A stretch of DNA of 20,337 bases from a virus: positions 1-20,337 of IMG/VR virus record IMGVR_UViG_3300021959_000532; one strand, 5' to 3'. Of this stretch, positions 1,979 through 20,331 are shown one piece after another. The notes under the pieces are model-generated. The model ran no database searches. It saw nothing but the letters and a program-made list of their open reading frames with translations, and was not told the origin of the DNA. A program made the translations under genes and the position numbers. Numbering within the stretch: the first letter of the stretch is position 1; each line of letters starts with the position of its first letter.

Positions 1979-3192
1979 CATTAGTAAGAAGTCTTATGGA
2001 TAAGTCTTTCTATGATGACCATAGAGGGGCAAGATGTCCTGACAGATTGTTTAGTAAAGATACTAGAAAAATAAAACAAGCTATTGATACTGCAATGAGT
2101 AGGTATGAACGTAATGTCACACCTGATGAAATAGAAGCTTTGTTTATGTCAAGTAATCCAACGATGACTACAGCACAGAAGCAAGCTTACAGTTCTTTGT
2201 TCAGAAAAATTAAGAACGAGCAACCTATGGGTGCAGATGTAGCACAAGAAGTATTGTCAAAGTTATTTCAACAAGTTGTTGGCGAAGATATTGCTAACAT
2301 TGGATTTGATTATGTGAATGGTTCTCATTCAAGCTTAGAACCTATACGTAATATACTTGAAATGTATGGAGATGATTTTACACCTAACCTTAACGTGGAG
2401 TGGGATGATATGGATATTGATACACTATTAGCAAAAAATGATTTAGAAGCTAGATGGACATTTAACGTGCCATCTTTAACAAGACAAGTTGAGGGCATTA
2501 ATGCAGGACACTTAATTGAAGTAGGAGCAAGACCTAACACAGGTAAAACTTCTTTTCATGCAAGTTTGTTAGCAGGTCCTAATGGTTTAGCAAGACAAGG
2601 TGCTAGTTGCATTATCTTGTGTAATGAAGAAGGTAGTCACAGGGTTGGTGCAAGATACTTAACAGCATCAACAGGTATGACAATGAGAGAGATAAAAGCA
2701 AACCCTACAAAGGCTCGTGACTTGTATGAACCTATTAAGAAAAACATTAAGATAAAAGATGCGACAGGCAGAGACATGTCATGGGTTGAAAGTGTATGTA
2801 AATCTTATAAGCCTGACATTGTTATACTTGATATGGGCGATAAGTTTGCACGTACCGCAGGTTTCGCTAGAGCAGATGAAGCCTTAAAAGCTAATGCTAT
2901 ACATGCTCGTATGATTGCTAAAGAGCATCAATGTGCAGTCTTTTATATGTCACAACTATCTGCTGATGCAGAGGGTAAGGTGCTACTGAATCAAAGTATG
3001 ATGGAAGGTTCACGTACAGGTAAAGCTGCTGAAGCTGACTTAATGATTTTGATAGCTAAGAATCCACCAAGACAAGATTCTGAAGAAGAAGATTTACAAA
3101 GACATTTGAATGTGGTAAAAAATAAACTTACAGGATGGCATGGTGTCGTTCATTGTAATTTAAATTACCAAGTAGGAAGGTATGAAGTGTGA
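1969..3192 (+). CDS. Replicative DNA helicase, DnaB/T7 gp4 type
   Basis: A 407-residue RecA-fold hexameric helicase that would unwind the duplex ahead of the polymerase. The N-terminal ~160 residues are a helical region of no clear family. The ATPase core has Walker A at 186-195 (GARPNTGKTS, K193), a likely catalytic glutamate E220 (LCNEE), Walker B ending at D288 (DIVILD), a sensor-type motif 'YMSQLS' near 326-331, and a basic 'NVVKNKLTG' segment near 381 that matches the arginine-finger/KNR region of T7-type helicases. The start is supported by AAAGGAG about 8 bases upstream inside the primase gene. The 10-base overlap suggests coupled translation at matched levels of primase and helicase. 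The 3' end overlaps the next gene's GTG start in a GTGA tetranucleotide. Confidence 0.92.
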   Translation: MELALVRSLMDKSFYDDHRGARCPDRLFSKDTRKIKQAIDTAMSRYERNVTPDEIEALFMSSNPTMTTAQKQAYSSLFRKIKNEQPMGADVAQEVLSKLFQQVVGEDIANIGFDYVNGSHSSLEPIRNILEMYGDDFTPNLNVEWDDMDIDTLLAKNDLEARWTFNVPSLTRQVEGINAGHLIEVGARPNTGKTSFHASLLAGPNGLARQGASCIILCNEEGSHRVGARYLTASTGMTMREIKANPTKARDLYEPIKKNIKIKDATGRDMSWVESVCKSYKPDIVILDMGDKFARTAGFARADEALKANAIHARMIAKEHQCAVFYMSQLSADAEGKVLLNQSMMEGSRTGKAAEADLMILIAKNPPRQDSEEEDLQRHLNVVKNKLTGWHGVVHCNLNYQVGRYEV

Positions 3193-3671
3193 CTTATATA
3201 CCAATTTATAAGAGGAAAATAAAATATCTTAACAAAAAAGATGCTGAGAGATTAAATCTTCCTCTTAAAACAAATGATATAAGAGATGATGGATATGTCT
3301 TCCAGTATTATTACACAAGGGGTGATGCTATATACGAAATGTGGCACTCTCCACAAACTATGAAAAATACATCTATTCGCAAAAGTAAAGATAAAAGAGA
3401 ACATAGTAAAAAAACTAGAAATTTTATTAAAAGGGTAAAACTATATCTTGGTTGTAATATTTGTGGGTATAAAAAATGTAGTGATGCTTTACATTTTGAC
3501 CACATTGATGTAAATAATAAATTTAGAGAAATCAGCAAGATGGGTGTGTATAGTTTTAAAAGTATAAAAGAAGAAATGAGAAAGTGTAGAGTGTTATGTG
3601 CTAATTGTCATGCCGAGCATACACAAGTTCAAAGAGAAGAAGGATTATTTAATAATGAAATTAACAATTGA
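3189..3671 (+). CDS. HNH endonuclease (free-standing, homing-type)
   Basis: A 160-residue protein with a C-terminal HNH nuclease domain. Zinc-binding pairs are C89/C92 (CNIC) and C137/C140 (CANC). The active-site residues are D104-H105 in 'HFDHID' and N139/H141 in 'NCHAEHT'. The N-terminal ~75 residues are basic and probably bind DNA, but I recognise no named domain. HNH enzymes make nicks or double-strand breaks. Free-standing copies between phage replication genes are usually selfish homing endonucleases, and this one sits exactly between helicase and DNA polymerase. It starts with GTG, sharing the GTGA with the helicase stop, and its last 17 bases overlap the polymerase start. There is no in-frame ATG before the mid-protein methionines, so the GTG start is favoured. 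Confidence 0.85.
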   Translation: MTYIPIYKRKIKYLNKKDAERLNLPLKTNDIRDDGYVFQYYYTRGDAIYEMWHSPQTMKNTSIRKSKDKREHSKKTRNFIKRVKLYLGCNICGYKKCSDALHFDHIDVNNKFREISKMGVYSFKSIKEEMRKCRVLCANCHAEHTQVQREEGLFNNEINN

Positions 3672-5667
3672 TGTAGAAAATACTGTTACTCATCGTGATG
3701 GTAAAATGCATCTTGACCCATTTGAATCTACAAACAAACTTGTCATGGTTGGTTGCTTAACAGATACAGGTAAAGAGTATTTGTTTCGTGATAACTTTGA
3801 TGGTGTACAAGAGTTGTTAGATGAAGCCACAATTCTTATAGGTCATAATATTGTTCACGACCTTATGTGGTTGTGGGAGTGTGGCTTTAAATACGAAGGT
3901 TCAGTATTTGATACAATGTTAGGCGAATATGTCTTGCAACGTGGTCAGAAACAACCATTGTCTTTAGAAGCATGTGCTGAGAGATATGAACTAGAAACTC
4001 AGAAACAAGATACTCTGAAAGAGTATTTCAAAAAGGGTGTAGGTGTTGACGAGATACCACATGAAGAGTTATCAAGTTATTTGTCTGCAGACTTACATGC
4101 GACACAACAACTATCTGACAGGATATATAGAAAACTAAATACTGTTGAGTATGCATCTTTGATGGATACAGTTATCTTAACAAACAAAGTTGCAGTTACT
4201 TTGGGTAGAATATATCAGAGAGGATTCAAGGTTGATGTTTCTAAGCTTGATGAAGTTAGAGTTGAGTTTGAAAAAGAAAAGCAACAGATTGAGGGAAGGC
4301 TAAATGAACAGGTAAAGTATCTAATGGGTGATACACCTATTAATTTAAATAGTCCTGAACAGATGTCTTGGGTTATCTATAGTAGAAAACCTATAGACAA
4401 AGCAATGTGGGCAAACAACTTCACACCATATATGGATGTGCAAGAGTATAAAGACAAAGTAAAAGAGTACTCTGATACATTGTACAAAACACAGGCAGTA
4501 AAATGTTATGAGTGCAAGGGAGAAGGTTACATAAGAAAGGTAAAGAAAGATGGTAGTTTATACTCTAAGCCAAACAGGTGTAATAATTGTAATACTTATG
4601 GCTACTTATTTAATGCTACGAAACATGTAGCAGGGCTAAAGTTCTCAGCACCCAATGCTAAGTGGATTAGTGCTAATGGTTTTACAACTAATAAAGCATA
4701 TTTAGATATATTACGTAATGTAGCTAAGAAGAATAATTTAACTGATGCTGTAAACTTTCTAACTGACTTACAAAGATTGTCTGCATTGGATACTTATTTA
4801 TCATCTTTTGTTGAAGGCATCAGTACACATGTGAAATCAGATGGCAGGTTGCACGTTAGATTGCTTCAGCACAGAACTTCAACAGGTAGGTTTAGTGGTG
4901 CTGACCCTAACATGCAAAACATGCCTAGAGGTGGTACATTTCCTGTGAAGAAAGTATTTGTATCACGTTGGGAAGGTGGAAAGATATTGGAAGCTGACTT
5001 TGCACAGTTAGAGTTCAGAACAGCTGCCTACTTATCACAAGACAAAATAGCAATGAAGGAGATTAACGATGGTTTTGACGTACATTCATACACTGCTTCT
5101 GTCATTACGGAATCAGGTCAGAAGACTTCTAGGCAAGAAGCCAAAGCCCATACCTTTGCCCCTCTATATGGAGCAACAGGATTTGGGAGAACGAATGCTG
5201 AAGCAAAATATTATGAACAGTTCACACAAAAATACAAGGGAGTTGCATCATGGCATTCCCGATTGGCTAAAGAAGCTTTAGAAACACGTATGATAACAAC
5301 CCCATCAGGTAGGCAGTTTTTATTTCCTGATGTTGAGAGAAGAATGAATGGAACTGTTTCACATTTTACACAAATAAAAAATTACCCTGTACAAAGCTTT
5401 GCGACTGCAGATGTAGTGCCATTAGTTTTAATAGAAATAGATAAAGCACTTGACAGGTATAATTCTTGTGTGGTAAATACTGTACATGACTCTATAGTAA
5501 TAGATATTCATCCACATGAGACAGAAGACGTATTGAATATCATTCGCAATATGAATAGGACATTGAATAACTTGATAAATATAACATTTAAAATTGATTT
5601 CAACGTACCTCTTTTATTAGAAGCGAAGATAGGAGATAATTGGCTTGACACAAAAGACGTGTCGTGA
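3655..5667 (+). CDS. polA: Family A DNA polymerase with 3'-5' exonuclease and a zinc-ribbon insertion
   Basis: A 670-residue replicative polymerase of the Pol I/T7 gp5 family. The proofreading exonuclease is intact: Exo I D6/E8 (IDVEN), Exo II with D69 (GHNIVHDL), Exo III Y142/D146 (YLSAD). The polymerase core has 'RTSTGRFSGADPNMQNMP' (408-424), motif A D448 (ADFAQLEFR), motif B R493-K497-F501-Y505, and motif C H611-D612. Motif C reads HDS, where Pol I and T7 have HDE. The residue equivalent to E. coli Pol I position 762 is Phe (F501). Between the exonuclease and polymerase cores, residues 284-312 carry CxxC...CxxC (CYECKGEGY, then CNNC), a DnaJ-like zinc ribbon in the thumb region. I chose ATG 3655, not the upstream in-frame GTG at 3598, because AGAAGAAGGA precedes it and Exo I follows at once. 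Confidence 0.95.
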   Translation: MKLTIDVENTVTHRDGKMHLDPFESTNKLVMVGCLTDTGKEYLFRDNFDGVQELLDEATILIGHNIVHDLMWLWECGFKYEGSVFDTMLGEYVLQRGQKQPLSLEACAERYELETQKQDTLKEYFKKGVGVDEIPHEELSSYLSADLHATQQLSDRIYRKLNTVEYASLMDTVILTNKVAVTLGRIYQRGFKVDVSKLDEVRVEFEKEKQQIEGRLNEQVKYLMGDTPINLNSPEQMSWVIYSRKPIDKAMWANNFTPYMDVQEYKDKVKEYSDTLYKTQAVKCYECKGEGYIRKVKKDGSLYSKPNRCNNCNTYGYLFNATKHVAGLKFSAPNAKWISANGFTTNKAYLDILRNVAKKNNLTDAVNFLTDLQRLSALDTYLSSFVEGISTHVKSDGRLHVRLLQHRTSTGRFSGADPNMQNMPRGGTFPVKKVFVSRWEGGKILEADFAQLEFRTAAYLSQDKIAMKEINDGFDVHSYTASVITESGQKTSRQEAKAHTFAPLYGATGFGRTNAEAKYYEQFTQKYKGVASWHSRLAKEALETRMITTPSGRQFLFPDVERRMNGTVSHFTQIKNYPVQSFATADVVPLVLIEIDKALDRYNSCVVNTVHDSIVIDIHPHETEDVLNIIRNMNRTLNNLINITFKIDFNVPLLLEAKIGDNWLDTKDVS

Positions 5668-11927: not shown

Positions 11928-12276
11928 ATTAGTTATAGAAGAAGTAATGACTGCTGAGTTTTATGAAATGAAAGCAGGACAGACAGCTATCTTCCCTGAA
12001 CACAAAGCCCTAGAGTACTTAGCTCTAGGGTTAACGAGTGAAGCAGGGGAAGTTGCAGGTAAGGTAAAGAAACTTATACGTGATGGTGAGGATATGGAAG
12101 GCTTTGAATTAAAGAAGATAGCCATAGCATCAGAGGTAGGTGACGTACTTTGGTATTGTGCTATGCTTTCTAAAGAGGTAGGTGTTCCATTGAATGATAT
12201 TATGAAAGATAATTTAAAGAAGTTACACGGAAGAAAGATACGTGGAACATTGCATGGGTCAGGAGATAACAGGTAG
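11887..12276 (+). CDS. mazG: MazG-like nucleotide pyrophosphohydrolase
   Basis: A 129-residue all-alpha NTP pyrophosphatase. The metal-binding motif is complete: E52 and E55 in 'SEAGE', E83 and D86 in 'SEVGDVLWY'. The C-terminal 'NLKKLHGRKIRG' (109-120) matches the family's closing helix. MazG-type enzymes convert NTPs, dNTPs or (p)ppGpp-like nucleotides to monophosphates; in marine phages it is a common auxiliary gene thought to alter host nucleotide pools. It is the last gene of the + strand module. ATG 11887 has AAAGG 10 bases upstream; ATG 11917 is an alternative that would shorten the overlap with the RMF-like gene to 11 bases. Its stop is 2 bases from the stop of the opposite-strand gene. 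Confidence 0.88.
   Translation: MKLEEEARKFMQDKLVIEEVMTAEFYEMKAGQTAIFPEHKALEYLALGLTSEAGEVAGKVKKLIRDGEDMEGFELKKIAIASEVGDVLWYCAMLSKEVGVPLNDIMKDNLKKLHGRKIRGTLHGSGDNR
12008..12030 (+). repeat. Perfect 8-bp inverted repeat (hairpin) inside mazG
   Basis: CCCTAGAG at 12008-12015 is the exact reverse complement of CTCTAGGG at 12023-12030, with a 7-base loop. A G-T wobble and an A-T pair could extend the stem by two. No T-run follows, so it is not a normal intrinsic terminator. It encodes 'ALEYLALG' in MazG, and repeated Leu/Ala codons may explain the symmetry by chance. Confidence 0.6.
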
Positions 12277-12278
12277 CT

Positions 12279-15200
12279 TTAGTTTAACTCTTGGAATGCT
12301 TTAGCTGTTGTTGGAAATAATTCTTTTTCACCGAACATTTCTTGATATACAGATAAAGCTCCTAAGTAATCACCATCTATACCTTCTCCAACTGTGACAT
12401 CGTACATGCTTGTACCATTACCATAGTTAGGACTATTTTTATACTGTCTTTCTACCAAGGCTCTTTGTGTTTTTGGTATGTCAAAAAACCTAGCTCTAAA
12501 TTTTCTATTTCTTTCTAGTGGTGTGTCTTTAGGAGAAGGTTTAATAACTTTCATCCTAGATACACCTCTGTAAGCATTGATTAAGTCTTTAAGATGCTTT
12601 CTTTTTAAACCATCAGAAGGTAAATCTTGATAGTCATTACTGAGTATGTAAGGTAGGATATAGTTATCCATAGCCCTACCCATCTCACCTTTTGATAAGT
12701 TTGACCACACACCTTCACCTTTAAATTTTCTAGGAGCTATTTCTCTAAAATCAAACCTTAATCTATCAAGCTCTGCTTGTATCATTGTTTTTGATTCTTT
12801 CTGTGTAAATCCTGTAAGCATTTTAACAAAAGGATTTACATTTCTTAATGGTCTGTCTCTACTAGGATTATATATAGGGGTGTCTTCTTCTTCGTCATAC
12901 TTCTTAGGAAGAGGTCTTGTTGCCCTTTTGAGCATATACTCCATCATATCAACATCATTAGTGTCTTGAACTATTCTGTAGTTAGGGTCTAATACAGTTC
13001 CAGCTATGTCCTTTAATACGCCGCCACCTACTAGTGCAGTACCAAAGAAATCACCAGCTATTCTTGCAGTTACTTCTTCAAATTCTTGCTCACTAGCACC
13101 TTCTCCATTTATGTTAAGTAGATTATCAACTAAACTATCTACAACATATAAACCTGTACCTGCTCTACCTAGACCACCTGTAAATGCATTTATAAAATCT
13201 CTAGTTTTTCCAGGTATACCTACAGCAACTTTTTTATTATCATGTATTTGAGGCAATGTCAGTCCTGCAACTTTTCTAGAACTTTCATCAGGACCTGTGT
13301 GTCTATACAACCAATCAGCTAGATAAGCAAAGCCCATGAAAGGACCAAGGGAAGCTGTTAAATCGTAACTTTCACCTTGAAATTTAAAATCATAAGGTCC
13401 TGTATTCTCATCACCAAATTCATGCCTTAATCCATAGAATGCGGATAACATCGCTAAACCTGTAGCTTGTTTAGCAAAAGATTCAGGGTCTAGCTTTATG
13501 AATGATTTCTCTCCAGCCTTTCCTCTTTTATTAAGAATACCCCCCATATTTACCATACCTAATACTGGCATGTGCTCATATTGAAATATTAATTGATTAA
13601 CTAAATAACGTGGAAAAGGTATTGCCGCAGAAGGAAGTATGCCTGATGAAAATTGGATAAAGCCATCAAAGAAAGTATTCATCCACCCTCTTCTCTCCCT
13701 GAATTTACCAGATTGATATGTAAAATCTATAGCTTTTTCCATAGCACCACCTATAGCCTTATCATCTATTAAGCTGAATTTACCCATAGATTTTTGTGCG
13801 TTTATAGGGTCTAAATAGGCTTCCTCGAAAAAACCTTTTAAGCCACCCTTTTGTCCATTAGCAAACATATATTTATCTAGTTCTCTAGAAAACACAGCAC
13901 GTTTAAACATGTTATCACTTAAAGTATTTAAGTAATTCATTTTTCTAGCTACCCAAACAACTCCACTCTCCGCACCTGTAATTTCTCCTACATCTCCCAT
14001 TTCTTTAAACAAGTTCTTAGCTAAATCAGATTTAGAAAACCTCTCATCTCTAAATAGTAATTCTAAAGCCTCTGTTTCCCAAGACTTAGTTCCTAACCAT
14101 AAATCCTTACCATAAGCAGACTGACCTCCTGTTCTCATTTGAGCTATACCAAGGTTTACTGCTCTTTTTGCTTCTTGTTTTAATATATTATCATCTAAAA
14201 CAGACCCTGCTATCTTTTTACCAAGCCCAATACCTGTGTTAATTAAGCCTTCACCTAAGTTATCTAAAGCGTATGCGTAATTTCTCATGTAACCATTTGT
14301 TGTGTTACGTGCAGTAGTAGCAGTTTGAATAGTCATAAAGCCTATACGTGCTTTATTTAGAGCACCAAGATTAAACCAATTATTGTATACATTAGCAACC
14401 TTAGTTCCTATACCACCATTTTGTTCTCTTACGACCTTCTGTGCTGGAGTAACTATATCGCCAAGATTTATTAACTTTTGGTCTAGTTCAGTTATTTCAG
14501 CTAAAAGCTGTTTTCTTTCTAACCTAGCTAATCTACCTGCTCCACCTATTAACCTAGCTGCTTTACTATATTCCTCAACCATTAAAGAAGAAAGCTGTTG
14601 CATACTTATGCCATGTTCATTTAATATTTCATATATTTTATCATCTTTAATTACATTATTACCTAAAGCCCTAGATAACCTAGATGTAAATCTTTCGGTA
14701 GCTACAGCCTTACCACCCTTCTTTGTAGTAACTTCTTTAGCTATAGGTGGAGGTAAAGCATCCATACCTTTTAGGTTTATAATACGTGATGCCGCAGCAG
14801 CTATATTTTCATGTAATTTTTCTTCTAAAGATAAATCAAATCTACCTTGTTTAAATTCTATATCACCTGCTATACCTTCTTTGAACTGCTTTCCTTCTTC
14901 TAACTTTTCAGGAACAGTTTCTTTTAACGCTAGTTTCCTTTTACCTTTTTCAGGCACAAGTTCTACACCTTCTGATATAATATTTTTAAATTCTTTAGCA
15001 TCTTTTTTTGTCTTAGATGAACGAAAAACTTTCTGAGTAAAGTTCTTATGAGCAGATTCAATGTTAACAGATTCTTTTTTTATAGCCACTTGTCTTATTT
15101 GTTCAGCGACATTAGAACTTAATGTACGACTTGTACCTGTTATAGCACCTATTGTACCACTACCTAATGCACTAAAAGTAGTAGCCAATGCTATATTTTC

Positions 15201-15890
15201 TAAGCTAATACCATCTTTTATACCAACATCATCTCTAATACGTTCTTGTTGATACACAGTGTACCCACTAGCAGCCCCATCTACTGCCATAGCACCTAAA
15301 GCTGTTCTATAGCCACCTTGAATAAAACCTTCTTTTGCTACACCTAGCCTTTGACCTAATGTTGGCTTTTTAGCAGATTCTTGGGCTACCCTTTTTGCGG
15401 TAGCTCTAATACCTTGTTTCTTTAAACTTTCTGTAGCACCTTTTTTGAGAGCTTCTCTTATACCTAACTTAACTCCCTGTTGAGCAGCTATAGCACCTGC
15501 CTTACTTGCACCAAAAGAAAACATACCTGCATAAGTTGATGGTGCAGTAAATACACCACCTAGATAATCTTGAGCTGCATCTAAACCTAAGTCACTATCC
15601 ATCTTATCAAATGTTTCCATGAGTCTACCAAATCTTTCTTTGGTAACATCATCTGCTTGTTGTACATAAAACAAATCTCTAGTAGCAGTTACTTCATTAA
15701 CATTTTGATAACGGAAATGTTCCATAAACCTGTCATATATTTCTTTCTTACCTTCTTCTGTATCAATAGAATTTTTAGGTTGATAATTTTCTCTTTCGCC
15801 CAAAATAATACGAGCATCTTCAATAAAGTCTTTATCCTTTATTAAATTTTGCTCTGTCATATCTTCTGGGTCATAATAATTATATGACAT
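12279..15890 (-). CDS. Very large internal virion / DNA-ejection-type protein
   Basis: A 1203-residue protein on the - strand, in the size class of T7 gp16 (1318 residues). I find no lytic transglycosylase motif and no clear enzyme domain. The N-terminal third has several stretches of small and hydrophobic residues (about 108-140, 185-212 and 231-254, rich in G, A, F and T) that resemble membrane-active segments of phage ejection proteins. The rest is mixed charged and helical, with another hydrophobic region around 'LGEGLINTGIGLGKKIAG' and a basic C-terminal part. It starts with ATG overlapping the previous gene's stop by one base, with AAAGAGGA about 12 bases upstream. It is the last gene of the late module. 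Assignment as internal core or ejection protein is inferred from size, composition and position. Confidence 0.7.
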   Translation of the reverse strand: MSYNYYDPEDMTEQNLIKDKDFIEDARIILGERENYQPKNSIDTEEGKKEIYDRFMEHFRYQNVNEVTATRDLFYVQQADDVTKERFGRLMETFDKMDSDLGLDAAQDYLGGVFTAPSTYAGMFSFGASKAGAIAAQQGVKLGIREALKKGATESLKKQGIRATAKRVAQESAKKPTLGQRLGVAKEGFIQGGYRTALGAMAVDGAASGYTVYQQERIRDDVGIKDGISLENIALATTFSALGSGTIGAITGTSRTLSSNVAEQIRQVAIKKESVNIESAHKNFTQKVFRSSKTKKDAKEFKNIISEGVELVPEKGKRKLALKETVPEKLEEGKQFKEGIAGDIEFKQGRFDLSLEEKLHENIAAAASRIINLKGMDALPPPIAKEVTTKKGGKAVATERFTSRLSRALGNNVIKDDKIYEILNEHGISMQQLSSLMVEEYSKAARLIGGAGRLARLERKQLLAEITELDQKLINLGDIVTPAQKVVREQNGGIGTKVANVYNNWFNLGALNKARIGFMTIQTATTARNTTNGYMRNYAYALDNLGEGLINTGIGLGKKIAGSVLDDNILKQEAKRAVNLGIAQMRTGGQSAYGKDLWLGTKSWETEALELLFRDERFSKSDLAKNLFKEMGDVGEITGAESGVVWVARKMNYLNTLSDNMFKRAVFSRELDKYMFANGQKGGLKGFFEEAYLDPINAQKSMGKFSLIDDKAIGGAMEKAIDFTYQSGKFRERRGWMNTFFDGFIQFSSGILPSAAIPFPRYLVNQLIFQYEHMPVLGMVNMGGILNKRGKAGEKSFIKLDPESFAKQATGLAMLSAFYGLRHEFGDENTGPYDFKFQGESYDLTASLGPFMGFAYLADWLYRHTGPDESSRKVAGLTLPQIHDNKKVAVGIPGKTRDFINAFTGGLGRAGTGLYVVDSLVDNLLNINGEGASEQEFEEVTARIAGDFFGTALVGGGVLKDIAGTVLDPNYRIVQDTNDVDMMEYMLKRATRPLPKKYDEEEDTPIYNPSRDRPLRNVNPFVKMLTGFTQKESKTMIQAELDRLRFDFREIAPRKFKGEGVWSNLSKGEMGRAMDNYILPYILSNDYQDLPSDGLKRKHLKDLINAYRGVSRMKVIKPSPKDTPLERNRKFRARFFDIPKTQRALVERQYKNSPNYGNGTSMYDVTVGEGIDGDYLGALSVYQEMFGEKELFPTTAKAFQELN

Positions 15891-17332
15891 TATTTATTAT
15901 ATTCCTCTTTCCAGTCCATACCCATTACTCTTTTGTATTCAGATTTCCAATCTGCTACTTGTAAAGCTATCAATCTATTCTTAATAGATTTTGCTTGTAT
16001 CTTTTGCTGAGTAGAATCTGAAGAATTTAGGAATTTATTTTTAGCTGAGGATATAGTTCTGTCGTTGTCAATCTTACTAATAGTTTCTTTAGTAGTTTTA
16101 GTAAAACCTGTTTTATCAGGTTCAGGAACACCACCACTACCGCCTCCACCGTCTTTAGTATATGATACTTTTTCATTTGAAATTGTAATATAAGGTGGTA
16201 TATTATCCGATGCTGGTACTATTGCAATCTTATAACCATTCTGCCCAGCAGCATGCATCAATCTATCAGGAGTTATGTATTCCCCTTCTTTTCCTTCTAA
16301 TCCTTTAAAACCTTTAGGAAGTTTGTTAGGAACTAAACCTCTAGCAGTTTGCTCATAGCCAAGACCGTAATCAGCTTTGTTCATTTTAGACCATCTTAAA
16401 GCGTCAGCCATTTCTTGACCTTGGTCTGAAACCAATTTAGCATTTTCAGATTTTGAAATAGCAGGAATCCAATCTTTTGTGTATGGGTCTATATTTCCTT
16501 TAAGATTAGCAAATGCAGCTGCACTTTTAGAAAAAGAACCTGCAAAGCTTCTTACTTGAGGGTTTGTTAATGGTTTATCTGATTGGGCTAGTATAGACAT
16601 TTCTGTTTGAAATGCTCTTTCTTTATACTCTTTCTTTTTATCAGGGTCTGTTTCATTTTCTGCGGCAGCTTTTAACTTAGGTAAATTTTCTTTTAAATTA
16701 TTTGTTAAAGATAATTCAAATCTATCTACACTCAACTTTCCTGCTGCCCCTATCTCACCATAACTCACAGGTTTTTCAGACAATCCAGATAATGCCATAT
16801 CAGACTCAATAGTTCTTTTCATATATTTAGGTATAGCATCTTCGGATGAAGCAAAAATATTTAAAATATTAGAGCCACTACCTTCCAAAGCCTTTCCATA
16901 ATCTAAGTCTGGTATATTCATAGGTACAGTAATTAATTCTGCTAATTGTTTTGTGGAAGGTGTTTGATAACCTTCGGTAGGCTTATATTTAAGAATTTGA
17001 GAAGCAGACATATTTGTATCTTGCATCTTCTTAACAACAGCAGGTATAACAGATTTAGCATAACTATAACCACCTTCACTTGTAATCAAGCTATGTAAAA
17101 TGCCAGAACCATCAGGACCTAATGCAGCAGCTAAAGATTTTATTTCTTCTTCATTTTCTCTAAATTCTTTTTTATATCTAGGCATCTCATTTGCGGCTTT
17201 GTTCATTCGTATTTCAGATAATCTACTAACTTTACCATCTAAATCATCCATAGCTTTCTGAACACCTTTAGCACCAGAAGTTGCTAATCCTTCAATAAGA
17301 CCTAAACCAAAATCACCGAACCGTATACCCAT
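15890..17332 (-). CDS. Probable virion protein, 480 residues (internal core or ejection candidate)
   Basis: A 480-residue protein with no named domain visible. The N-terminal ~25 residues are Gly/Ala-rich with a weakly amphipathic helix, followed by a charged helical stretch (30-70). Near the C-terminus a glycine linker (395-401, GGGGSGG) joins the main body to a lysine-rich tail of about 80 residues. Such linker-plus-tail architecture is common in structural proteins with two modules. AAGGAG lies 6 bases before its ATG, inside the end of the preceding gene, which abuts it directly. It sits just upstream of the 1203-residue protein and may be a partner, like the T7 gp15/gp16 pair, but this is inferred from order and not from similarity. 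Confidence 0.65.
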   Translation of the reverse strand: MGIRFGDFGLGLIEGLATSGAKGVQKAMDDLDGKVSRLSEIRMNKAANEMPRYKKEFRENEEEIKSLAAALGPDGSGILHSLITSEGGYSYAKSVIPAVVKKMQDTNMSASQILKYKPTEGYQTPSTKQLAELITVPMNIPDLDYGKALEGSGSNILNIFASSEDAIPKYMKRTIESDMALSGLSEKPVSYGEIGAAGKLSVDRFELSLTNNLKENLPKLKAAAENETDPDKKKEYKERAFQTEMSILAQSDKPLTNPQVRSFAGSFSKSAAAFANLKGNIDPYTKDWIPAISKSENAKLVSDQGQEMADALRWSKMNKADYGLGYEQTARGLVPNKLPKGFKGLEGKEGEYITPDRLMHAAGQNGYKIAIVPASDNIPPYITISNEKVSYTKDGGGGSGGVPEPDKTGFTKTTKETISKIDNDRTISSAKNKFLNSSDSTQQKIQAKSIKNRLIALQVADWKSEYKRVMGMDWKEEYNK

Positions 17333-17875
17333 TTAATTTCTCCTTGCCATTAAACCCATAGGTTCTTCTTGTGGACTCTCCTCAACTTCTTCTGAAGCAG
17401 ACTCCATTTTAACTTCTTCAACCAAAGTATCAGCCATCCCATCTTCAGGGTCTACTGACTTTTTATCCATTTCATTACGTAACTTTTCAACAGTTCTTTT
17501 AGCTAATGAATCTCTATTTGTTCTAGGCTCATCTTCTAAACCTGTATCATATTCAATTCCTGCCGAATCTCCTATCACCATCATTGTCTCAATTAATACA
17601 GGTAATACTAATAAACCCACATCTGTTGTGTGTTTACCTTCCATCACACCTGCCAATTGTATAGTATTTGCAAGTGTAGTTAAGGGTATTCCCATATCCA
17701 TAACATCTACAAGTTGGTCAGCAAACTCATCATTCATCATTCTAGATGTGTAATGGTCTACTGCTGCTTCAACTGTAGGATATTGCGGAGGTTGTTGCCA
17801 AGGTCTAGCACCAAGCTCGTGTGTCAAAGACATTCCCGGAATAGGAGCATCTAATTTAGGTTGTTTCTCTTCCAT
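17333..17875 (-). CDS. Conserved marine-phage protein, probable virion component
   Basis: A 180-residue protein. It opens with a proline-rich segment, 'PIPGMSLTHELGARPW' followed by 'QQPPQYPTVE' (11-36), then helices with 'FADQLVDVMDMGIPLTTLAN' (51-70) and a hydrophobic run 'DVGLLVLPVLIETMMVIGDS' (85-104). The C-terminal ~70 residues are acidic and low-complexity, ending in 'MARRN'. The N-terminal block is familiar from structural-gene regions of marine phages, from memory and unchecked. I cannot name a function. A short AGGA lies about 11 bases upstream of its ATG. The stop codon touches the next start (TAA-ATG), and the 5' end overlaps the 76-residue gene by 20 bases. Confidence 0.7.
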   Translation of the reverse strand: MEEKQPKLDAPIPGMSLTHELGARPWQQPPQYPTVEAAVDHYTSRMMNDEFADQLVDVMDMGIPLTTLANTIQLAGVMEGKHTTDVGLLVLPVLIETMMVIGDSAGIEYDTGLEDEPRTNRDSLAKRTVEKLRNEMDKKSVDPEDGMADTLVEEVKMESASEEVEESPQEEPMGLMARRN

Positions 17876-18086
17876 TATTTTTGAATCCTAATCTTTTATT
17901 TCTAATTGTGTTTACGTATTTAGCTATTCTATAAGCAGGTTGATTAATTAATTCTTGATTCATACCCTTATTTACAGAATTTCTTGATGAAGACAATAAA
18001 CCACCTTTTTTAGTTTTAGGCTCAACTGGGTCTATTTCTATCTGTTCCATTAACTTATACATAGATTTTGCGTAATTAGTTTCCAT
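17856..18086 (-). CDS. Small basic protein, 76 residues, unknown function
   Basis: A 76-residue protein, basic in its second half ('KKGGLLSSSRNSVNKG' and 'RNKRLGFKNNGRE'), with an acidic-helical start. No domain recognised. I place the start at the ATG whose complement is 18084-18086, one base after the stop of the 747-residue gene; an in-frame TTG four codons further out (18098) would overlap that gene and is less likely. It overlaps the next gene by 20 bases. Tight packing among late genes suggests a minor virion or assembly protein, which is inference only. Confidence 0.65.
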   Translation of the reverse strand: METNYAKSMYKLMEQIEIDPVEPKTKKGGLLSSSRNSVNKGMNQELINQPAYRIAKYVNTIRNKRLGFKNNGRETT

Positions 18087-18087
18087 A

Positions 18088-20331
18088 TTATAATCCAAAC
18101 CTCAAGTATGCAGTACCTAGTGTACCAATTAAATTTCCAATGGCACTACCAGCAGAAGAAGACCTTCTACTTGATGCCTCATCTCGCCTTACACCTGCAT
18201 CAATTTGTGCTTCAGCTAAAGTTGTCATTCTATCTAATTCATTTTCAGCAGAAGTCCAAGCCCACTCCATTGTGTCTGCATAATACTGCCATAAATTATC
18301 ATATGCATTTTTAGACACATTAAGTAACGCAGTAGCATTTAATTCATTAGCACGGTTAATAGCTGCAGTATCTGCTGTAGCAATCTGTCTTCTCCACTGA
18401 GCGTTACTCTGTGCTATTATCATTTGATTCTGTGCATTGAATTGGTCACGTTGATTGTTTAATTCGGCATTAAATCTTTCAACTGTGTTTGCTTGACCTG
18501 CATTGAATTGACTTTGAGCATTTGCTTGAGTAGCATTGAACTGTGCTACCTGCGTATTTAAACTAGCAAAGAATTGGTCTACTTGATTTTGACTAGAAGC
18601 ATTAAACTGTTTAGCAGCATTTGTAGCAGCTTGGTCTGTAAACAATGCCTGTGTTCTTTGTTGTGCTTTAAATAAATCTGTCTGCTGTTGATTAGATAAA
18701 TTAGCCATTTCCATCTGCAAGAAAGACTGTGCATTTTGTACTGCTGACTGTTGCCTGTTATTTAAATTAGACATATCTAAGTTAGCTAACGCAGAAGCTT
18801 CCGCCATAACCATTGCTTGTCTATTAGATAGATTATTCAAGTTCATTGTATTTACAGCACGAGAGTTCTCTAGAGCTATGTTCTGCTCTGCTGTGAAGTT
18901 CATGTTAGCTATATCACCAATTCTAGCAGAGTTCTGTACCCTTGCTTGAAATGCTTGGTCAAACTCTTGTCCTATGAACTGTGCACGTTGTTGTGCAGCA
19001 AGCATTGCTCTTTGCTGTCTATTGGATAAATTCTGTGATTCAAACTGTGCCTGTGTTTGTGCATCAGCTTGAGCTATAGGCAATGCAGATTCTAATGCAC
19101 CTTGTATAAGTGCTTGACCTGCAATTGAAGATGCACCCAAACCTCTAGCTGCCAACTGTCCTTGAATACCACGTAATGCTCCTGCAGCCCATGGAGGAGG
19201 ATTATTAGCATCAAAGTTTTGGGTAAGCTGTGCTAGTTGTCCTTGTACTGTAGCCTTCTCACTAGGAGTTGCTGTAGCAGCTTCAATCTGTTCTGCAAAC
19301 TTAGACGCTTTTTCTGCATCTGCCGCACCTGATATTAATTCACCATCCTGTATCTCACGTTGTACAGGGTTCTCCATTAATGTTGCACTTCCTTGTGCAG
19401 CATTTAAATCTGAAACAGCAGACTTAGTTTGTTGAGCAGCTAAAACTTTAGCACGTGGGTCATTAGGGTCTGTTTGAGCAGCTTGGAGTGAATCTAGGGA
19501 TGAGTTAACCTGACCTGCTACAGCTTCAGGTGTCATAAGATTAGCGTCAGTAACACCTGGCTGTTCTGCCATAGTTGTTGAAGCCATTGCTGTTGGTACA
19601 GAAACAGTGCCTGACACTTGACCTGTGCCTTGCTGTAACATTTGGTCAGGTGATTGTCCTATGCCTACAGCAGTGGCTGTTGCACCTTCAGGTAAAGCAG
19701 GGTTAAATGCTAGTTTACCTGTTATATCAGCTACTGAACCACCTATAGATGGAGCAGGAGGTATATATCCTGGAGTTGTTGCAATAGGACTACCTTCTTG
19801 TACAGACACAAGTTGTGGTCCATCCGCTGCTATGTTATCAGTAATAGTTAATCCAACTTCTCTAGCAAAGTTTTTAAAGTCTTCTGTAAACTGACCACCA
19901 CCAAGTCCTTGATACCCTTCCTGTTCAGATAAACGCACAGGACCACTATATATGTTTCTTACGTAGTCTAATATCTTATCTGATTTATTTGTTCCTAGAG
20001 GGTCATCAGTATCATCTTTTGCTAACTCTTCTTGCATAGCATCAAAGCTAGTTTGAATGTTAGGGTTTTTAAATGTATTTGTTCCTGGAAATGTTTCTAC
20101 ATTCTGTCTGTAGTCAGCATAAGGGTCAACACCTTCTTCAGGTACACCTAAGTATTGGTCATCCATTTGGGGGATGTATTGTTGTGGTAAAGGTTGAGGT
20201 TGAGCAGTTTGTGCGTAAGGTTGAACAGCATACCTTGGAGTTTCATTCATCCTTCTATTAATTTCTTCGTCTGACATACCCGGATAGTATTGCTCTAAAA
20301 TAGCCGCTACCCTTGGGTTATCTTTAAACAT
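18088..20331 (-). CDS. Large Q/N/A-rich virion-type protein with hendecad repeats
   Basis: A 747-residue protein in four parts. Residues 1-75 are Pro/Gln-rich, with several PQ and QP steps. Residues 76-360 are acidic and Ala/Thr-rich with no domain I recognise. Residues about 360-420 include 'PPPWAAGALRGIQGQLAARG', a glycine-alanine segment. Residues 423-675 are an uninterrupted series of 11-residue units, with N commonly at the first position and long Q/N/A content. The C-terminus ends in 'GSAIGNLIGTLGTAYLRFGL', a small-residue hydrophobic stretch. No enzyme motif is visible. The start ATG is 6 bases from the window edge, so its ribosome binding site is outside and an upstream extension cannot be excluded. 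It leads the - strand module of the window; a structural or ejection role is inferred. Confidence 0.7.
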   Translation of the reverse strand: MFKDNPRVAAILEQYYPGMSDEEINRRMNETPRYAVQPYAQTAQPQPLPQQYIPQMDDQYLGVPEEGVDPYADYRQNVETFPGTNTFKNPNIQTSFDAMQEELAKDDTDDPLGTNKSDKILDYVRNIYSGPVRLSEQEGYQGLGGGQFTEDFKNFAREVGLTITDNIAADGPQLVSVQEGSPIATTPGYIPPAPSIGGSVADITGKLAFNPALPEGATATAVGIGQSPDQMLQQGTGQVSGTVSVPTAMASTTMAEQPGVTDANLMTPEAVAGQVNSSLDSLQAAQTDPNDPRAKVLAAQQTKSAVSDLNAAQGSATLMENPVQREIQDGELISGAADAEKASKFAEQIEAATATPSEKATVQGQLAQLTQNFDANNPPPWAAGALRGIQGQLAARGLGASSIAGQALIQGALESALPIAQADAQTQAQFESQNLSNRQQRAMLAAQQRAQFIGQEFDQAFQARVQNSARIGDIANMNFTAEQNIALENSRAVNTMNLNNLSNRQAMVMAEASALANLDMSNLNNRQQSAVQNAQSFLQMEMANLSNQQQTDLFKAQQRTQALFTDQAATNAAKQFNASSQNQVDQFFASLNTQVAQFNATQANAQSQFNAGQANTVERFNAELNNQRDQFNAQNQMIIAQSNAQWRRQIATADTAAINRANELNATALLNVSKNAYDNLWQYYADTMEWAWTSAENELDRMTTLAEAQIDAGVRRDEASSRRSSSAGSAIGNLIGTLGTAYLRFGL
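18307..19065 (-). repeat. 33-bp-periodic region encoding about 23 hendecads
   Basis: Within the 747-residue gene, residues 423-675 divide into consecutive 11-residue units. Examples by first residue: 434 NLSNRQQRAML, 500 NLSNRQAMVMA, 522 NLNNRQQSAVQ, 544 NLSNQQQTDLF, then 577, 599, 610, 621 and 632 each starting NA, with the preceding unit ending in QF, RF or similar. The earlier half also shows a 22-residue super-period (434, 456, 478, 500, 522, 544). The phase is kept from start to end without insertions that I can see. Confidence 0.8.

Follow-up and report, generated by a model that had tools for sequence, protein, structure and literature searches.

The pilot protein H of the tail-less ssDNA phage phiX174 forms a 170 Å decameric alpha-helical tube, 22-25 Å wide and lined mostly by asparagine, glutamine and arginine; the tube comprises residues 151-271 and consists of three hendecads at one end followed by 11 heptads (PMC7354561). 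The genes for the ejection proteins of T7 (gp14-gp15-gp16) and P22 (gp7-gp20-gp16) form late cassettes of rising gene size, which follow the tail genes and close the structural module. Phages of the HMO-2011 type are reported to outnumber every other known group in most of the marine viromes that were examined (PMC6918029), and it is a late protein of this type that we analyse here in a 20.3-kb fragment of a virus record (the window, i.e., the whole stretch of 20,337 nucleotides). The protein, referred to below as the array protein, shares with phiX174 H a long proline-free helix (predicted here), a hendecad section, a face of uncharged amide side chains and a supposed role in the passage of DNA through a Gram-negative envelope. 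Unlike phiX174 H, it comes from a short-tailed dsDNA phage and its array runs to 23 hendecads, and up to ca. three times longer in relatives, while tube and inward face are conjectural in the present case. Asparagine and glutamine make up 32% of the array and 26% of the phiX174 H coiled coil, with almost no proline or glycine, as compared with 7-18% in the ejection proteins of T7 and P22. No homology was detected between the array family and phiX174 H, and no PDB chain was matched (profile searches to E = 1, array searches to E = 10).

The array protein and its gene neighborhood

Similarity across head, array and tail, together with a position before a gene of ca. 180 aa, places the array protein in the family of gp25 of Puniceispirillum phage HMO-2011 (68.8% identity over residues 199-743, tblastn); scans of Pfam, PHROG and NCBIfam returned no match to the window protein. 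Relatives are encoded by phages of SAR116, Roseobacter-group, Pelagibacter, Rhizobium, Sinorhizobium, Vibrio, Aeromonas and Pseudoalteromonas hosts, all known hosts being Gram-negative, and by several hundred further viral contigs, and with the queries used none were found in bacterial genome contigs or plasmids. Where annotated, they are mostly called "hypothetical protein"; the relative in ctYwJ313 (L088:5366-7957) bears the public-record name "huntingtin", presumably a misannotation arising from its Q/P-rich sequence. The features of the locus are collected in Table 1.

Table 1 Features of the array protein and of the late cassette in the window
Feature	Residues	Positions	Strand	Remark
Array protein, 747-aa ORF		18088..20331	-	HMO-2011 gp25 orthologue
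N-terminal variable region	1-344	19300..20331	-	replaced in relatives by other lengths or modules
Conserved, non-repetitive array head	345-428	19048..19299	-	helical, pLDDT ~80
Hendecad array	417-669	18325..19083	-	253 residues, 23 units, without register break
C-terminal "QFNA" sub-array	575-644	18400..18609	-	F/I/V/L on one face, A-N-Q on the other
Post-array helical continuation of fixed length	670-745	18097..18324	-	invariant spacing; AlphaFold2
C-terminal small-xxx-small hydrophobic segment, AGSAIGNLIGTLGTAYL	727-743	18103..18153	-	such a tail in 152 of 212 homologues
80-aa ORF in a variable slot		17856..18098	-	other genes in this place in relatives
180-aa conserved partner gene		17333..17875	-	five-helix AlphaFold2 model, pLDDT 83
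480-aa variable late protein		15890..17332	-	putative ejection-cassette member
1203-aa late protein		12279..15890	-	putative large ejection protein; no family match

The array gene was said in the first-pass annotation to adjoin very large ejection-like proteins, and large late genes do follow it immediately. Across hosts, the succession of array gene, small gene and genes of ca. 180, ca. 500 and ca. 1200 aa is conserved, with varying sizes, in HMO-2011, the CRP phages, Slicky01, phiM6 and the Rhizobium, CHOED and MQM1 phages. The array gene sits at the putative ejection side of the late module, well away from the portal, scaffold and coat genes, and in HMO-2011 the tail fiber genes are found directly upstream of it. 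Order and sizes would fit a podovirus ejection cassette, and the likeness to T7 and P22 extends to the late position, the rising sizes and the location at the structural-module end after the tail genes; unlike in T7 and P22, however, an extra protein, i.e., the array protein, precedes the set of 180, 480 and 1203 aa. Neither in sequence nor in fold did the neighbors match a known ejection protein, and the T7 and P22 ejection proteins have neither sequence similarity to this cassette nor an 11-residue lag. Of the 207 loci that hold the 180-aa partner, 203 have it within 1.5 kb on the downstream side of the array gene; the partner carries the motifs RPWQ-PPQ and, at its C-terminus, GLMARR. Its model found no convincing fold in the PDB and otherwise matched just one viral protein of similar length, and its sequence could not be linked to proteins of T7, P22 or the Grimontviridae. 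The variable slot is filled in CRP-603 by a cell wall hydrolase (PF07486) and in CRP-9 by a gene of a length similar to it.

Other parts of the window and of related genomes also deserve mention. The late module on the minus strand and the early one on the plus strand (MazG gene) run towards each other and meet at positions 12276-12279, with a 2-base gap and a switch in GC skew; the gap holds no terminator-like site, and its equivalent in HMO-2011 is 157 bases long. On the plus strand, an ORF at 3189-3671, HNH endonuclease-like by eye and possibly a homing endonuclease, overlaps the start of a DNA polymerase A gene (3598-5667, plus strand), whose product has CxxC(x)G-type cysteine motifs between its exonuclease and polymerase parts, resembling the partial DnaJ domain described in HMO-2011 (PMC6918029). 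In the late module of the pelagiphage HTVC033P (L091:4130-6244), two 2OG-Fe(II) oxygenase genes and a "putative ferrochelatase" gene are inserted just upstream of the array gene.

The array and the C-terminal part are conserved, whereas 132 distinct N-terminal lengths occur among the homologues, and in some relatives LysM, RTX or DUF4214 modules are present on the N-terminal side. The head is recognizable by the motifs GQL..L, P.WAAGA.R, MAARGLGASS and SALPIAQ.DAQ. Among the 212 homologues with complete C-termini, 152 possess the small-xxx-small hydrophobic tail, in some of them followed by an S74 or a CFI-box-like module; by pattern, 16 have S74 (e.g., CRP-3, CRP-738, and CRP-235), at least 26 have the CFI-box-like "CWVAREVYG" and 153 have neither. 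The window protein lacks S74. HMO-2011 gp25 itself (L001:21642-21866) and at least 26 relatives end in the "CWVAREVYG" domain, in the place taken elsewhere by S74; it resembles NCBIfam CFI-box-CTERM, with a best E value of 0.003 that lies below the cut-off, and such C-termini were also seen in L006, L009, L012, L081 and L084. The CRP-235 protein (L098:2411-4942) combines LysM at its N-terminus with S74 at its C-terminus.

Register and length of the hendecad array

An 11-residue register had been read by eye on the minus strand at 18307-19065, which correctly translates to residues 423-675 of the 747-aa ORF, and the junctions reported there are indeed found at residues 575 (QFNA), 586 (QFFA), 597 (QFNA), 608 (QFNA), 619 (RFNA), 630 (QFNA), and 641 (QSNA). 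The upstream part of the array is organized in 22-residue pairs with the consensus ..L[SN]NxQQxxLxNA... Residue identity within the array at lags of 11, 22, 33 and 44 reaches 0.22, 0.23, 0.22 and 0.19, as compared with 0.10-0.11 expected (z = 5.9, 5.9, 5.7, and 4.6), values attained in 0, 0, 0 and 1 of 5000 shuffles that kept the regional composition. An 11-column profile made only from homologues less than 55% identical placed all 21 overlapping 33-residue segments of residues 417-669 in the same phase, each above 99% of the null; since every segment shares this phase, the description of an uninterrupted array of about 23 units holds. The 11-column pattern is retained even between proteins that are ca. 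25-35% identical.

Between two non-repetitive anchors, SALPIAQ.DAQ in the head (residue 405) and ..SNAQWRR at the end (residue 626), the spacing equals 221 + 11n residues in all 218 homologues in which both anchors could be scored, with 16 distinct spacings ranging from 111 to 771 residues. The register that the earlier reading would have expected homologues to keep was thus lost in none of them, while the N- and C-terminal lengths of the same homologues, taken as a control, scatter over all residues modulo 11. Behind the array, the spacing of 54 residues from SNAQWRR to WAWTSAENELDR is the same in 217 of 217. A tree made solely from the array flanks requires at least 30 separate length changes, each a multiple of 11; in one parsimony reconstruction 27 changes are even, and 17 go in multiples of 110 residues, and changes by 1, 2, 6, 8, 11, 12 and 22 units preserve the register as well. 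Long members contain an internal 110-residue super-repeat (5 x 22) with 29-51% identity between blocks, which means that the quantization may stem in part from duplication of existing blocks. Growth by 110 residues, i.e., 10 hendecads, is visible in five viral contigs (L208, L179, L141, L144, and L145; blocks 35-51% identical), and such steps run in separate clades, one with 0, +10, +20 and so on and another with +8, +18, +28 and +38 units. Whatever its function, we regard the array as a striking case of strictly quantized evolution in a helical protein.

Predicted helix, its faces and its length

Across the arrays of 75 non-redundant homologues, 28,585 residues in all, proline is absent, as compared with a share of 4.4% just upstream. 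An AlphaFold2 model based on 67 homologues places helices at residues 402-475, 481-500, 505-544 and 547-745, with moderate confidence (mean 60; 45-80 in the array): pLDDT is ca. 80 at the head, 45-60 in mid-array and 70-79 at the end, and mostly low in the N-terminal 335 residues. The array is therefore predicted to be neither globular nor disordered, and the long helix proposed in the first-pass annotation is borne out at this level of confidence; that the array is helical appears likely, and we are less sure of the predicted continuity through its middle. The unbroken 11-residue register, the 3-4-4 core spacing and the helix prediction (moderate confidence) are those of a hendecad coiled coil, whose supercoiling is putative.

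The same reading had implied a hydrophobic period of 11/3 = 3.67 residues. Periodicity analysis upheld the 11-residue register but not this peak: hydrophobicity peaks at 2.75 and 2.2, its power at 3.67 is low, and it is glutamine that peaks there. On a helical wheel of the family pattern (98.2 degrees per residue), hydrophobic residues gather at 327-33 degrees, with glutamine between them, and again near 196 degrees. A strong asparagine ladder lies at 229 degrees; most charges fall at 262-295 degrees, and glutamine, serine and asparagine at 65-98 degrees; lysine and arginine account for 30% at 262 degrees and for 3-4% at 65-98 degrees. In the main array the hydrophobic moment is 0.10-0.17 in the first and 0.24-0.33 in the second harmonic, the latter with a hydrophobic axis at 4/184 degrees and a charge axis at 87/267 degrees. 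A simple amphipathic helix, the other form suggested at first, is accordingly not what we see, as there are two opposite hydrophobic faces, with a charged face and an amide-rich face lying between them.

Drawn out straight at 0.15 nm per residue, the window array would measure ca. 38 nm and the helix from head to tail ca. 52 nm, and homologous arrays from ca. 17 to more than 115 nm. The rod suggested initially, taken as one of fixed periplasmic length, fails as a family-wide function because array length varies between 111 and 771 residues. The longest straight arrays would exceed both the Gram-negative periplasm and a capsid of ca. 70 nm, the size reported for CRP-9 (PMC8528129) and MQM1 (PMC10410586), so long members must double back, curve or be situated elsewhere. 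A tape-like part fares no better, as the tails of these phages are short: the helix between the anchors, ca. 27 nm, compares with a tail of 9.2 nm in MQM1 (PMC10410586).

Candidate roles in the virion

We tentatively favor, ahead of all other readings, a virion pilot or ejection protein that opens the ejection cassette of HMO-2011-type podoviruses and packs laterally into a tube or bundle, a tube wall being one of the forms raised in the first-pass annotation. Two opposite hydrophobic faces are compatible with a helix that has a neighbor at either face, the arrangement of helical barrels and sheets, and it is from them that we infer such neighbors for the array. Several copies would align laterally to form a tube or a sheet-like bundle, with the charged face perhaps outward and the amide face inward (this orientation being a guess), and the assembly, like the phiX174 H tube, would guide DNA through the cell envelope or past it. 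The glycine-rich C-terminal tail might touch the membrane, and the disordered, exchangeable N-terminus might touch the host cell wall or help packing; judged by sequence, the LysM and RTX modules and the neighboring cell wall hydrolase of relatives would point to contact with the envelope. The 11-residue quantization would also be explained, because gain or loss of whole hendecads keeps the faces aligned. Presence in the virion, oligomerization, the direction of the faces and a part in DNA delivery are all inferred for the array protein.

Comparison with annotated proteins makes it plausible, by analogy, that the array protein works like an ejection protein. S74-bearing relatives match phrog_4287 "DNA ejection protein" and phrog_6121 "virion structural protein", matches that vanish once S74 is removed. 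Proteins built alike, with a helix, a Gly-rich segment and S74, are annotated as DNA ejection or injection proteins in phages 7-11, GAP52 and APT65, and one occupies the slot of P22 gp7 in the P22-like Pseudoalteromonas phage H6/1. For a further one, gp18 of Privateer, the record marks presence in the virion as verified by mass spectrometry, and ten virion proteins are reported for this phage by that method (PMC7881722). The S74 proteins of H6/1 and of the Grimontviridae (7-11, GAP52, and Privateer; phrog_4287) share with the HMO-2011 subgroup II relatives a Q/N-rich helical body, a glycine-rich hydrophobic segment and a C-terminal S74. In phage 7-11, too, the S74 ejection gene comes first and is followed by late genes of ca. 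180, 550 and more than 600 aa. The 7-11-type proteins, however, lack the 11-residue register, which H6/1 gp17 shows as lags of 11, 22 and 33. Because the comparison of the array family with 7-11-type proteins outside S74 is not significant (hhalign probability 0.5%, E 0.11), the link to ejection proteins rests on S74, architecture and position; with no significant similarity beyond S74 and no homology to T7 or P22 proteins found, the array protein could not be assigned to a known ejection family. The best BFVD matches of the array model look like members of its own family, and below them comes one "DNA transfer protein" (E 0.003) with poor superposition.

The next reading in rank, doubtful in our estimation yet the foremost competitor, is an external trimeric fiber or tail needle, i.e., a parallel three-helix hendecad coiled coil that reaches the cell surface and whose assembly is assisted by S74 in some relatives. 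S74 domains are trimer chaperones of fibers and spikes, and their occurrence in the 16 homologues noted above, the canonical 3-4-4 core spacing, the tail fiber genes just upstream in HMO-2011 and the gene of the P22 tail needle gp26, which sits two genes before gp7-gp20-gp16, all agree with it, as does a large length variation of the kind common among fibers. Known phage fibers, however, have a conserved N-terminal anchor and a variable C-terminal tip, the reverse of the pattern of this family with its many N-terminal lengths; a second conserved, N-rich face would be unexpected in a simple trimer, and P22 gp26 has no 11-residue lag. S74 is itself weakened as a pointer to fibers, since it is found fused to annotated DNA ejection proteins.

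Third, and unlikely, comes a protein of the capsid interior (core, scaffold or DNA-organizing) that stays in the capsid or is lost from it and has no role in crossing the envelope. Such a protein would suit a late gene, its N/Q-rich surfaces could line packed DNA, long arrays could wind inside the capsid without any need for a fixed length, and some S74 relatives match a PHROG of the category "head and packaging". The envelope-related modules and the adjacent hydrolase of relatives speak against it, as does the distance of the gene from those for portal, scaffold and coat.

We consider an amphipathic 11-mer helix that binds lipids or surfaces, of the apolipoprotein, perilipin or synuclein type, to be quite improbable. 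Repeats of 11 and 22 residues, many length changes and a long helix are all expected of it, but the main array has no single hydrophobic face, given its stronger second harmonic, and its composition (K/R 6%, D/E 7%, amide 29-32%) is unlike that of such families; nor does the continuous face at 11/3 of apolipoprotein/LEA-type 11-mers appear. Least probable of all, and close to refuted, is the view that the repeats lack structural meaning and arose neutrally, by slippage or recombination in a low-complexity gene: tandem duplication does predict the 110-residue blocks of long members with their internal identity, but length changes by other numbers of units also stay in register (0 of 218 homologues have register-breaking indels), proline is fully excluded and the 11-column pattern outlives most of the sequence identity.

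To return to the tube or bundle, a stronger version of this reading, which we put forward as a speculation more likely wrong than right, would see in the array family an undescribed class of tailed-phage pilot protein: an amide-lined alpha-helical DNA tube made from a modular hendecad array whose length changes in steps of 11, 22 and 110 residues, convergent with phiX174 H. The family offers a clean natural experiment, with the same helix in many lengths and always in register; through it one can test whether tubes that guide DNA are built from hendecad arrays, and what, if anything, is measured by array length. Should the tube reading prove true, amide-lined helical tubes would have had two or more origins, one among tail-less ssDNA phages and one among short-tailed dsDNA phages, and such a pilot class would belong to a virus group that ranks among the most abundant in the ocean.
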